A program made the translations under genes and the position numbers. A DNA stretch of 64,000 nt from Lachnospiraceae bacterium (GTDB lineage Bacteria > Bacillota > Clostridia > Lachnospirales > Lachnospiraceae): contig JAFOEY010000033.1 in assembly GCA_017387565.1 (NCBI GenBank), forward strand, positions 25,208-89,207. Reading direction: 5' to 3'. The notes under the pieces were generated by a model. It was not told the origin of the DNA and searched no databases. It was given only the letters and a program-made list of their open reading frames with translations. This document shows, one piece after another, positions 10,244 to 63,831 of the stretch. Position 1 is the first letter of the stretch, and each line of letters opens with the position of its first letter.

Positions 10244-10273
10244 TTGACGTATTTTGACCTTATAACCTATAAT
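10244..10273 (+). promoter_or_regulatory. Sigma-A promoter for the pfl operon
   Basis: TTGACG (10244-10249), 18-nt spacer, TATAAT (10268-10273). It predicts a 5-prime leader of about 80 nt before the PFL core start at 10359. No regulator site could be assigned. Confidence 0.75.
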
Positions 10274-10358: not shown

Positions 10359-12398
10359 ATGAGACCCGAATGGACAGATTTTGTAACTGGCAAATGGGAC
10401 AAAGAAGTCAATGTCCGTGACTTCATCCAGAGAAACTACACACCTTATGAAGGTGACGAAGCATTCTTAGCTGGCCCTACTCAAAACACAAAGGACTTAT
10501 GGAATCAGGTACTTGATTTACAGAAACAGGAGCGTGCAGCTGGCGGTGTTCTTGATATGGATACCAAAGTTGTTTCTACCATTACTTCTCATGGTCCCGG
10601 TTACCTTGATAAGAGCAAAGAAACAATCGTTGGTTTCCAGACTGACAAACCTTTCAAACGTTCTTTACAGCCTTACGGCGGTATCCGTATGGCAGAGAAA
10701 GCTTGCGCAGACAACGGCTACACAGTAGATCCTGAAATCTCAGAGTTTTTCTCTACACACAGAAAAACACACAACGCAGGTGTATTTGATGCATATACTC
10801 CCGAAATGAGAGCTTGCCGTACAGCTCATATCATCACAGGTCTTCCGGATGCATACGGACGTGGACGTATCATCGGCGACTACAGACGTGTTGCATTATA
10901 TGGTATTGACAGACTGATCGAAGACAAAGAAGATCAGAAAGCTTCTACAGGACGTGTTATGACAGATGACGTTATCCGTCTTCGTGAAGAAATTTCAGAG
11001 CAGATTACTGCATTAAAGATGATGAAACAGATGGCAGCTTCTTACGGATGTGATATCTCTAAACCTGCTGCTAACGTACAGGAAGCTATCCAGTGGACAT
11101 ACTTCGGATACTTATGTGCAGTTAAAGAACAGAACGGTGCAGCTATGTCTCTTGGACGTACATCTACATTCCTTGATGTTTACGCAGAAAGAGATTTAAA
11201 GAACGGTACATTCACAGAAGAACAGATTCAGGAATTCGTTGATCACTTCATCATGAAATTACGTTGCGTAAAATTCGCTCGTACACCTGAATACAACCAG
11301 ATTTTTGCCGGTGACCCTGTATGGGTAACAGAATCACTTGGTGGTGTTGGTATCGACGGACGTCCGTTAGTAACAAAGATGTCTTTCCGCTACTTAAATA
11401 CATTAAACAACTTAGGTGCATCTCCTGAACCGAACTTAACAGTTCTTTGGTCAACAAGATTACCGGAAGGCTGGAAGAAATTCTGTGCTAAGATGTCTAT
11501 CAAGACTTCTTCAATCCAGTACGAAAACGATGACTTAATGAGAGTAACACATGGTGATGACTACGGTATCGCTTGCTGTGTATCTTCCATGAGAATTGGT
11601 AAAGAAATGCAGTTCTTCGGCGCACGTGCTAACGTTGCAAAATGTTTGTTATACGCATTAAACGGTGGTATCGACGAAGTAACCAAGAAACAGGTTGGAC
11701 CGAAATATCGTCCTGTTACCGGTGATGTTCTTGATTATGATGACGTAATGGAAAAATTCACTGACATGCTTGAATGGCAGGCAGAGGTTTATGTTAATAC
11801 TCTGAATATCATCCACTACATGCATGATAAATACTGCTATGAAAGAGCTCAGATGGCATTACATGACAGAGATGTAAGACGTTACTTCGCAACAGGTGTT
11901 GCCGGTCTTTCAATCGTTGCTGACTCTTTGTCAGCTATCAAATATGCAAAAGTTGAAGTAGTTCGTGATGAAGATGGAATCATCGTTGACTTCAAGACAA
12001 CCGGTGACTTCCCCAAATATGGTAATGATGATGACCGTGTTGACTCTATCGCACAGGAAATCGTACACAAATTCATGACAGCTATCAGAAGACATCATGT
12101 ATACAGAGATGGTTTCCCGACAACATCTATCTTAACCATTACATCTAACGTAACATACGGTAAAGCTACAGGTAACACTCCTGATGGACGTAGAAAAGGA
12201 CAGCCTTTCGCTCCCGGTGCTAACCCGATGCACGGCCGTGATACTCATGGTGCAGTTGCTTCCTTATCTTCTGTATCTAAACTTCCTTTCAACGATGCAC
12301 AGGATGGTATTTCCAATACATTTACCATTATCCCCGGTGCTCTTGGAAAAGATGATCAGGTATTCGCAGGAGATATCGAAATCGACTTAAACAAATAA
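10359..12398 (+). CDS. pflB: Pyruvate formate-lyase core subunit lacking the glycyl radical domain
   Basis: 679 aa. It is the CoA-dependent lyase that splits pyruvate to acetyl-CoA and formate. The protein follows classical PflB throughout: [13 protein letters not shown] start, substrate and barrel segments, and the adjacent active-site cysteines in YGIACCVSS (Cys406-Cys407, codons at 11574-11579). It ends just after [15 protein letters not shown], where the usual enzyme continues into the glycyl radical domain. That domain is encoded separately at 12682, and 679 plus 81 aa equals the 760 aa of E. coli PflB. The start has AGGAGG 10 nt upstream; an in-frame upstream ATG at 10299 has none. Codon use is strongly biased, suggesting high expression. 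A frameshift is unlikely, as the downstream parts have their own ribosome sites. Confidence 0.95.
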
Positions 12399-12416: not shown

Positions 12417-12617
12417 ATGGACGAAAATGCAATGATTGATGATTTAATCCGTCAGCTTGACGGTGGAATGTCAAAAGAAGTCGGACATGTAAATGTGGAT
12501 GTTAATTCTCTTACAGCCGGCAAAAATGTAGAAACCATGGGATGTGCGGACTGCTCTTCCAATCCTCTTGCATGCAGCGTTCCGACACTTCACGAAGGTT
12601 TGGATGGCGAAGAATAG
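12417..12617 (+). CDS. 66-aa protein resembling the N-terminal part of the PFL glycyl radical domain, radical loop replaced by a Cys segment
   Basis: ATG at 12417 with AAGGGTG 6 nt upstream, 18 nt after the PFL core stop. Residues 1-31 line up with the separate radical-domain protein at 12682: IDDLIRQLDG against [10 protein letters not shown], then SKEVGHVNVDV against [11 protein letters not shown]. After this the RVSGYAVNF radical loop is missing. Instead there is GCADCSSNPLAC (three cysteines, two as CxxC), then an acidic tail LDGEE. It is therefore a paralogue or decoy of the radical domain without the radical glycine. Possible roles are a placeholder that occupies the open site, a chaperone for radical-domain docking, or a thiol/metal protein. 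All are inference; I know no named family for it. Confidence 0.8.
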   Translation: MDENAMIDDLIRQLDGGMSKEVGHVNVDVNSLTAGKNVETMGCADCSSNPLACSVPTLHEGLDGEE

Positions 12618-12681: not shown

Positions 12682-12927
12682 ATGGCAGACGCTAGTACAG
12701 CTCAAGTAGACAACTTAGTAAACTTATTAGATGGTTATGCAACAAAAGGCGGACATCATTTAAATGTTAACGTATTAAACAGAGATACATTATTAGATGC
12801 ACAGAAAAATCCTGAGAACTATCCTCAGTTAACAATCCGTGTATCAGGATATGCTGTTAACTTCATCAAATTAACACCTGAACAGCAGGCAGACGTTATC
12901 AGCAGAACATTCCATGAATCAATCTAA
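12682..12927 (+). CDS. grcA: Separate glycyl radical domain of pyruvate formate-lyase (GrcA/YfiD-like)
   Basis: 81 aa equal to the C-terminal end of classical [18 protein letters not shown], then [15 protein letters not shown] with the radical glycine Gly56 (codon 12847-12849), and [11 protein letters not shown] near the end. E. coli keeps this domain inside PflB and also has GrcA/YfiD, a spare copy that rescues cleaved enzyme. Here the core gene has no such domain, so this protein should be an essential subunit rather than a spare. A strong AGGAGG site lies 9 nt upstream. It is the third gene of the operon, followed by a terminator. The radical would be installed by the activase at 13132. 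Confidence 0.93.
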
Positions 12928-12948
12928 TTGATACGTTTATGAATGACG

Positions 12949-12985
12949 ACAACCCTTTGGTTTTTTCCAAAGGGTTGTTTTATTT
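12949..12985 (+). terminator. Intrinsic terminator of the pfl operon
   Basis: ACAACCCTTTGG / TTTTTT / CCAAAGGGTTGT perfect 12-bp stem followed by TTTATTTT. Confidence 0.93.
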
Positions 12986-13131: not shown

Positions 13132-13896
13132 ATGAGCGGTAGAATTCATTCATTAGAAAGCTTCGGTACCGTAGACGGTCCCGGCACACGTTTTGTAGTC
13201 TTTGTACAGGGATGTCCCATGCGATGTGCGTATTGCCACAATCCGGATACCTGGTCCATGACAGGCGGTACCATAATGGAGGCTTCCGAGATTATTGAGC
13301 AATATGAAAGAAATAAGCCATTTTATCAAAATGGAGGAGGTCTTACTGTAACCGGTGGTGAACCTCTGATGCAGATTGACTTTTTAATCGAGCTTTTTAC
13401 GCTTTGCAAAGAAAAAGGCATCCATACCTGCATCGACACCTCAGGAATTGCTTATAAGCCTGCCAATACAGAATACAATGCAAAGCTGGATCATTTAATG
13501 ACCATGACAGATCTGGTTATGTTGGATATCAAACATATTGATCCTGAAAAGCATAAAGAATTGACAAAGCAGCCCAATGACGGCATTCTGGCCTTTGCGG
13601 CATACTTAAACGAAAAAAAGGTTGATATGTGGATCAGACACGTTGTTGTTCCGGGAATCACCGATGATGAAGAATATCTTTATAAACTGGGATATTTCAT
13701 CGGACAATTTACCAACTTAAAGGCTTTGGATGTATTGCCTTACCATGATATGGCAAAAAAGAAATACAAAGAACTGAATATTGATTATGTCTTAAAAGAT
13801 GTAAAACCGATGGATAAAAATCTCATACCAGAGAAAAAACAATTTATCTTGAATGGTATCAAAAAACGACGGGAAGAAATGGGAATCTCGAAATAA
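13132..13896 (+). CDS. pflA: Pyruvate formate-lyase activating enzyme (radical SAM)
   Basis: 254 aa, radical SAM enzyme that abstracts a hydrogen from the PFL glycine using a [4Fe-4S] cluster and S-adenosylmethionine. The cluster motif is CPMRCAYC (Cys28, 32, 35). The short PflA form without an extra ferredoxin insert is indicated by length and by FGTVDGPGTRFVVFVQGC at the start. GGGLTVTGGEPL is the SAM-binding GGE region and VTGGEPLMQ the downstream loop. I chose 13132 because AGAGGAA stands 8 nt before it; an ATG at 13111 is less well placed. Its substrate here should be Gly56 of the small protein at 12682. The ferredoxin gene 107 nt downstream could supply the reducing electron. Confidence 0.95.
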   Translation: MSGRIHSLESFGTVDGPGTRFVVFVQGCPMRCAYCHNPDTWSMTGGTIMEASEIIEQYERNKPFYQNGGGLTVTGGEPLMQIDFLIELFTLCKEKGIHTCIDTSGIAYKPANTEYNAKLDHLMTMTDLVMLDIKHIDPEKHKELTKQPNDGILAFAAYLNEKKVDMWIRHVVVPGITDDEEYLYKLGYFIGQFTNLKALDVLPYHDMAKKKYKELNIDYVLKDVKPMDKNLIPEKKQFILNGIKKRREEMGISK

Positions 13897-63758: not shown

Positions 63759-63831
63759 TGAGCCACCGGGGACTCGAACCCCGGACAACTTGATTAAAAG
63801 TCAAGTGCTCTACCACCTGAGCTAGTGGCCC
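63759..63831 (-). tRNA. tRNA-Lys (anticodon TTT)
   Basis: 73 nt without encoded CCA. Acceptor arms GGGCCAC/GTGGCTC, D-arm with GCTCAGGTGGTAGAGC, anticodon stem CTTGA-CTTTTAA-TCAAG giving TTT, T-arm CCGGGGTTCGAGTCCCCGG. Confidence 0.97.

Follow-up and report, generated by a model that had tools for sequence, protein, structure and literature searches.

We analysed a 64,000-nt stretch of DNA from a Lachnospiraceae bacterium (contig JAFOEY010000033.1, positions 25,208 to 89,207; hereafter the window), in which a 66-aa gene that we call S lies between the two genes of a split pyruvate formate-lyase (PFL), one encoding a core that lacks the radical domain and the other a separate glycyl-radical subunit, GrcA3. 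S represents a real, well-conserved and unnamed protein family, and its cysteine-bearing half is interchangeable with a tail carried in cis by the cores of other split PFLs, a result that is new here and well supported. We propose, with a probability of about 0.5, that S is the dithiol arm of split PFL supplied in trans, which would maintain the catalytic Cys-Cys pair of the core or bring it back to its working state. The link between a dithiol and split PFL is well supported, and the thiol chemistry is what we infer. The parts of the system in the window are as follows.

10359..12398, + strand: PFL core without radical domain (split PflB), 679 aa; TIGR01255 at 1105.6 bits; PF02901
11574..11579, + strand: vicinal Cys406-Cys407 (IACCVSS) of the core; ACCVSS is also found in the alignment with PDB entry 38LB
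12351..12395, + strand: C-terminal tail of the core, free of cysteine
12417..12617, + strand: S, 66 aa, radical-domain-like anchor followed by a cysteine tail
12435..12506, + strand: anchor module of S, residues 7-30 (IDDLIRQLDGG..GHVNVDVN), homologous to the helix and strand of the radical domain
12543..12575, + strand: cysteine motif of S, Cys43-x2-Cys46-x6-Cys53
12682..12927, + strand: separate glycyl-radical subunit (GrcA3-like), 81 aa, with RVSGY and Gly56 at 12847-12849

S joins a radical-domain-like anchor to a cysteine pair

In a search with the PFL model, the TIGR01255 match of the core stops at position 665/744, so the radical domain is missing, and the radical subunit scores 157.2 bits against the GrcA3 model NF038360, slightly below the cut-off of 158, and 81.7 bits against PF01228. 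A preliminary description of the window had placed between these genes a small open reading frame (ORF) inside the operon with a ribosome site of its own, and this stands: 18 nt separate the core stop from the start of S, and 64 nt separate the end of S from GrcA3, all on the same strand, and the purine-rich AAAAAGGG lies 8 nt upstream of the S ATG.

The same description had matched the first half of S to the radical subunit (LDG...GHVNVDV against LDG...HHLNVNV), a likeness that proved to be beyond chance, as the S profile aligns with the radical-domain profile over 32 columns with a probability of 96.6 and an E of 4.9e-10 (hhalign). The segment concerned carries the beta10 barrel strand in E. 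coli PFL and YfiD, according to excerpts of PMC8683613. Because the first half is radical-domain-like, it is plausible that S anchors at the radical-domain site; as possible roles there the description had offered filling the empty pocket, guarding the core from oxygen, helping the true radical subunit to dock and passing on to PflA. The RVSGY glycyl-radical loop is absent from the window S and from an alignment of 99 S sequences, so a radical cannot sit there. In its place the description had seen a cysteine stretch and an acidic tail; the translation of ORF 12417-12617 does contain GCADCSSNPLAC and an acidic end, but this half does not look like an altered radical loop and resembles the C-terminal cis tail of other split cores. 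The name given to S, a mimic of the radical domain, thus holds for the anchor half only, the other half being a dithiol that elsewhere forms the tail of the core, and pure radical-domain mimicry was set aside for this reason.

The alignment was drawn from a mix of the family sample (see below), the named genomes and the window. From 113 candidates we omitted L113 and L116, which are not S, and L110 and L111, which are shortened by a stop, and merging identical sequences reduced the remaining 109 to 99; the S of L102 was taken from an internal start. The two shortened genes end straight after the CxxC (GCTDCAK, GCTTCSQ), without the ACxVPTL end. Across the 99 non-redundant sequences G23, H24, N26, C46, C53, P56 and T57 are nearly invariant. 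Conservation of the cysteines, on which the description had staked its reading, was found: C53 is present in 99/99, C46 in 96/99 and C43 in 77/99. The total is two cysteines in 22/99, three in 75/99, four in 2/99 and never fewer than two, and while the lost member of C43/C46/C53 varies among sequences, a pair is retained in every one.

S is a conserved family encoded beside split PFL

We sampled 299 genomes of the same family as the window (the family sample) and 291 genomes of its class (the class sample), with four genomes common to both. The family sample was searched with a 42-row S profile at E < 1e-10, and with a single sequence as well. The profile search found S in 77/299 genomes, and in 73 of these it lies between core and GrcA3 on the same strand, in the order core-S-GrcA3-PflA (65 genomes) or core-S-GrcA3 (8 genomes), as the description had foreseen for other split pfl operons. 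At these 73 loci S follows the core at a median distance of 42 nt and precedes GrcA3 by a median of 49 nt. The named genomes show core-S-GrcA3 at 31/32 loci and core-GrcA3-S at the remaining one (L063). In the class sample full-length S occurs in 9/291 genomes, with a stand-alone GrcA3 in 9/9.

S is an orphan in the other four family genomes (L030, L075, L083 and L084). Three of them have a split PFL elsewhere, with 0, 0 and 1 cysteines in the core tail, that is, no pair; in the fourth, which is 67% complete, no GrcA3 was seen. The orphan gene stands immediately before MoxR/DUF58 genes in L075, directly before proB in L083 and near proBA in L084, and no pfl gene lies within the 3 kb of L030. 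Some S-bearing genomes also have a second stand-alone GrcA3 (L179-L183) with no PFL core within the 5.5-8 kb fetched.

S is under purifying selection, with nonsynonymous divergence (dN) far below synonymous divergence (dS) in the pairs compared: dS/dN is 2.46/0.10 for L036/L038, 0.55/0.035 for L058/L060 and 1.37/0.078 for L047/L050. Pfam and NCBIfam gave no family above cut-off for the window S and two relatives, whose anchors had weak GrcA3 matches in NCBIfam (E 0.0016 and 0.0038); for the window S these databases gave neither an iron-sulfur family nor a thioredoxin match. Against solved structures in the PDB, the S profile had no convincing match; a designed repeat protein (E 0.0032) and one other entry (E 0.35) were rejected as chance. 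No S was found in the viral contigs searched.

Split cores without S mostly carry the cysteines in cis

Among the matches listed, a short frame encodes a stand-alone GrcA3 in at least 114 of the 299 family genomes, and genomes with a weaker GrcA3 may be missing; the GrcA3 figures for the class sample are to be read in the same way. Among these 114 split genomes, 76 have S and 38 have no S match. All 38 of the latter loci were fetched (L202 and L203, second GrcA3 copies without a core, are not among them), and cysteines were counted after the ALGK landmark of the core. Beside S, the core tail has no cysteine in 73/73 family cores and at 32/32 S loci of named genomes, whereas 36/38 split cores without S have at least two (Fisher p 3.7e-27, kinship ignored). 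Tails of the latter kind include ...DLDCSNGACASPTLFEGLD, ...ECGNMACNIPNIEESIDRE, DCACCEPN and GCC alone, and often they are the S motif itself; their cysteine spacing ranges from CC to Cx6C, with Cx4C alone commonest (15/42). With the profile of the C-terminal half of S, 28/42 cis tails score above the best of 100 shuffles of their own sequence. The segment after ALGK is shared, since its pattern is kept in 74/76 S-bearing cores and more loosely in 30/38 other split cores of the family, and in 12 fused PFLs compared the radical domain follows at the same place.

Across the whole of the 36 tail-bearing genomes, an S-profile search that admitted matches up to E 1 found no ORF with both S halves. 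In the same search the C-terminal half matched the terminal part of the PFL core ORF in 13/36 (best E 7.4e-5) and, as a control, the N-terminal half matched the GrcA3 N-terminus in 36/36. Weak matches in small frames of G179, G085, G092 and G090, a further one in G237, and one in G057 that runs through two stops and ends in the apparent start of a copper-ATPase were all rejected for want of both halves; in the G179 frame a cysteine is followed by MACSIPT, but the anchor is missing.

For G130 and G288, the family genomes in which neither a tail nor S had been seen, the search was repeated at a looser threshold. G130 has an orphan ORF (GVGHINV...LECENSPVPMACGVPTVF) that, to judge from its sequence, is plainly a divergent S, and an ORF in G288 (AFLDGHMGGGGG...VCPTCADIPNMMQ), which scores through its N-terminal half only (E 0.2), is a weak S candidate. 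These S-like genes are what would be expected of genomes that lack both tail and S, weakly so for G288. S or a tail is therefore found in 114/114 listed split genomes of the family counting G288, or in 113 without it. The looser search found no S in G548, G486 or G448.

A quick tree of 111 cores (50 with S, 42 with a tail, 4 with neither, 3 with orphan S and 12 fused; L283 and L259 were too short and left out) needs repeated switching between S and the cis tail. The S label changes 14 times on it, at least 8 of them forced by strongly supported branches, and the tail label 15 times, at least 10 of them forced. Part of these switches could come from horizontal transfer or tree error.

A thioredoxin-like gene adjoins the core in family f70

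In G486, from a family that we label f70, the core ends SLGKDD without a tail, and a 92-aa thioredoxin-like gene stands between pflA and the core; its protein, the only one of its kind tested against PF00085, matches above cut-off (E 5.8e-10). Used as a query, it has a match in 93/121 f70 genomes. At the best 30 of these 93 loci, G486 included, the gene adjoins a PFL core in 30/30, with PflA on its other side in 29 (the thirtieth meets the contig end), and the proteins have the CxxC and the invariant proline in 30/30; the loci were picked by thioredoxin score, so these counts do not measure how large a share of f70 split PFLs has the gene. The 11 f70 loci fetched at length all have GrcA3 after the core, and their cores end a few residues past SLGK, tail-less.

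The thioredoxin profile matches 0/76 S loci, 0/38 split loci without S, 12/12 f70 loci and 0/13 fused-PFL loci. The S profile matches 0/12 f70 loci, and no scanned locus belongs to both the S and the thioredoxin group; the single S-profile match counted at a locus without S is the GrcA3 N-terminus of L187. Among the matches listed in the class sample, the 18 split genomes divide into 9 with S, 6 with a tail, 1 with a thioredoxin and 2 with none of these; G450, whose GrcA3 match lies in a 191-aa frame, is outside the counts. Large thioredoxin-matching frames in G628, G639 and G615 were considered as PFL fusions and rejected, as no PFL core lies inside them.

It seems, then, that the f70 gene is a third dithiol supply. 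The tail on the core and this apparently thioredoxin-like protein, as alternative sources of a dithiol, point to thiol redox work for S rather than radical mimicry.

A proposed dithiol arm for the catalytic cysteine pair

We take Cys406-Cys407 of the core to be the counterpart of C418/C419 in E. coli. In E. coli PFL, the radical moves from G734 to C419 of this pair, as given in excerpts of PMC12338860. We propose that S would dock on the core through its N-terminal half, a helix and a beta10-like strand, in or close to the site of the radical domain. With the radical subunit gone or on its way out, the barrel would be open and Cys406-Cys407 exposed; the dithiol of S, lying beside them, could keep the pair in, or return it to, the thiol form through thiol-disulfide exchange, until docking of GrcA3 displaces S. 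The docking site, the target cysteines, the direction of electron flow and the displacement by GrcA3 are all proposed from sequence comparison. What suggests a guard for the catalytic pair is that S, cis tail and thioredoxin-like protein alike bring a thiol pair, alongside a radical domain that can detach.

The nearest parallel in working is the arm of class I ribonucleotide reductase (RNR). RNR forms a disulfide in turnover, and E. coli NrdA ends GCESGACKI, with the Cx4C spacing of 15/42 cis tails. In RNRs of this type, thioredoxin or glutaredoxin reduces a cysteine pair at the C-terminus, from which electrons pass to the active site (excerpts of PMC5704485). Like that arm, S and the tails bring at least two cysteines on a C-terminal tail (99/99 S and 36/38 split cores without S), but the likeness is one of working and not of descent, and the arm formed by S is a separate protein. 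Thioredoxin itself (PF00085) is like S in supplying a dithiol, and its CxxC-bearing f70 member sits beside the core, although S is no thioredoxin by Pfam or NCBIfam.

The solved sequences closest to the core, PDB 38LB and 38LA ('Formate acetyltransferase', 1141 and 1123 bits), are not among the radical-domain matches and are split-type PFL cores. 38LB has ...GECDMC and then 42 further residues past the core, which makes a tail with at least two cysteines. No paper on these entries was among those listed in searches of the open-licence literature.

More widely, we suggest tentatively, and a little less firmly than for S alone, that split PFL depends on a dedicated dithiol, as a redox-gated enzyme in the manner of RNR, and that this need is met in at least three ways: by a tail on the core, by S in trans and by an operon thioredoxin.

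Several points weigh against the reading of S as a dithiol arm. We know of no disulfide formed in PFL turnover, and the word 'disulfide' does not occur in the main text of the PFL papers PMC12338860 and PMC8683613. Against their own shuffles 14/42 cis tails fail, and the lowest scores belong to tails of the CACCEP and short GCC types, which resemble S in little more than the cysteines. None of S, tail or thioredoxin was found in two class-sample genomes, G548 (95% complete) and G448 (82% complete, with its core at a contig end), and the selection of the f70 loci by score counts on the same side. S, tail and thioredoxin could be answers to different problems.

A further point of this kind comes from a related family, which we call type-2, with the same anchor and a C-terminal YHHGRCDVGSPWAKG motif. 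It is found in 38/299 family genomes at E < 1e-15, 37 of which also carry S, and its alignment to S spans 53 columns (E 6.4e-11); each of five type-2 proteins compared has two cysteines. Their neighbours differ and look unrelated (hisS, fabH, argS and an exonuclease), so that anchor and cysteines sit beside genes other than pfl, and one type-2 genome, G089, has no glycyl radical enzyme (GRE) match at E up to 1e-8. The anchor may therefore serve something other than PFL: either further partners are served by the same plan of an anchor plus a dithiol, or the role of the anchor is independent of PFL. A search of 48 genomes for the type-2 motif as a cis tail returned only type-2 genes (4 genomes), all other matches having E 0.036 or worse. 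Members include one in the genome of the window itself (G000:C2:120470-120649, L335) and L169, L170, L172, L173 and L175. A third kind with the same anchor has CCxxYGRxANETVGLLDMYTDS near its end (L171:3779-4069, L174:3751-3972).

Alternative roles for S

The strongest rival, which we hold to be unlikely, is that S is an assembly or activation factor that recruits GrcA3 or PflA to the core, its cysteines being part of the contact. S would then stand in for residues 696-733 of E. coli PFL, beta10 included, which are left after oxygen cleavage and aid YfiD binding. In favour of this, the corresponding part of the radical domain has its homologue in the N-terminal half of S, whose gene lies between those of core and GrcA3. 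According to excerpts of PMC8683613, YfiD binding and activation are both weaker once 696-733 is removed, and the segment is called a 'recognition element' of cPFL:YfiD; this description of an S-like region is what puts the rival first. Against it, cis-tail cores without an anchor keep the cysteine part, so that cysteines and not a beta10 copy are what the systems share, and in f70 a thioredoxin-like gene takes the place of S. GrcA/YfiD proteins (TIGR04365, NF008341, NF038360) have before their radical loop a helix and strand homologous to the N-terminal half of S; unlike them, S has no RVSGY and stands beside GrcA3 instead of replacing it in 73/77 family genomes.

Less probable again is a role as an accessory subunit that binds a metal (Fe, Zn or Fe-S) and controls movement of the radical domain. 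Small GRE subunits of the HiPIP-like and rubredoxin-like kinds have four cysteine ligands for [4Fe-4S] or Fe. S has four cysteines in 2/99 sequences and only two in 22/99, the cis-tail spacing of 0 to 6 residues is unlike a fixed site, and the window S matches no iron-sulfur family. We therefore set aside a fixed metal site as the leading explanation, as cysteine number and spacing vary. The model for this rival is the beta/gamma subunits of BSS, the gamma of HPAD and the beta/gamma/delta of MASS, small cysteine-bearing GRE partners, as S may be, which hold [4Fe-4S] or one Fe in HiPIP-like or rubredoxin-like folds (excerpts of PMC12358834). The tail of MASS delta lies near the radical domain, as is proposed for S; S differs from all of them in having as few as two cysteines and an anchor derived from the radical domain.

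We regard as somewhat less probable still a sacrificial or radical-repair role, in which the cysteines would scavenge stray radicals and oxygen species near the detachable glycyl radical instead of acting on the catalytic pair. Thiols readily donate hydrogen atoms, and full-length S occurs in the class sample only where GrcA3 stands alone, but one thiol would suffice for quenching, yet every S in the alignment has a pair, and CxxC thioredoxin-like proteins are suited to disulfide exchange. Finally, that S is a functionless, decaying grcA duplicate, as its radical-domain-like N-terminal half might suggest, is refuted by its conservation: dN is far below dS, residues are nearly invariant and S is retained even away from pfl.

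Other features of the locus and related genes on virus-labelled contigs

Around the core, S and GrcA3 genes, the window has the following features.

10244..10273, + strand: promoter-like TTGACG-18-TATAAT upstream of the core, 11/12 matches, by consensus only
12948..12979, + strand: terminator-like hairpin of 13 pairs after the radical subunit
13132..13896, + strand: PFL-activating enzyme PflA; TIGR02493 at 304 bits
14004..14174, + strand: 4Fe-4S ferredoxin, 56 aa, downstream of pflA; NF058577 at 85.3 bits

The ferredoxin might supply electrons to the activase. The hairpin scan of the region, which found 7 terminator-like sites on both strands against a shuffle mean of 3.0, placed none on the + strand between core, S and GrcA3; promoter-like sites number 9 in the region as a whole, fewer than in shuffles (14.2). 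Elsewhere the window has a bacterial large signal recognition particle RNA (RF01854, 35956-36218, - strand) and a tRNA (63759-63831, - strand).

PFL genes 60-62% identical to the core lie on virus-labelled IMG/VR contigs (L226-L238); 8/13 were translated, and 8/8 continue into the radical domain. Contigs of this kind with a complete PFL are, to our knowledge, less well known than the spare-part genes of T4. Other virus-labelled contigs (L239-L250) have GrcA3-like genes with 71-81% identity. A spare-part gene in T4 is known from excerpts of PMC8683613.

Meaning for split PFL

The existence of an NCBI model for GrcA3 means that the radical subunit has already been recognised. Among the papers listed in searches of the open-licence literature, none deals with split PFL, GrcA3 or S, which is not proof of absence, and in the literature searched there was no description of the handling of the radical part as a free subunit by a radical enzyme.

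In Lachnospiraceae of the gut and rumen, PFL is one of the main enzymes of fermentation, and it is split in at least 114 of the 299 family genomes sampled. If the dithiol proposal is true, S would be an accessory subunit for which the radical domain itself had provided the material, and glycyl radical enzymes would be tied to the reducing arms of ribonucleotide reductases. It would give a testable statement, that a thiol pair is required because the radical domain is detachable, and a likely role for a protein that has no name and occurs in roughly one in four of the sampled genomes.
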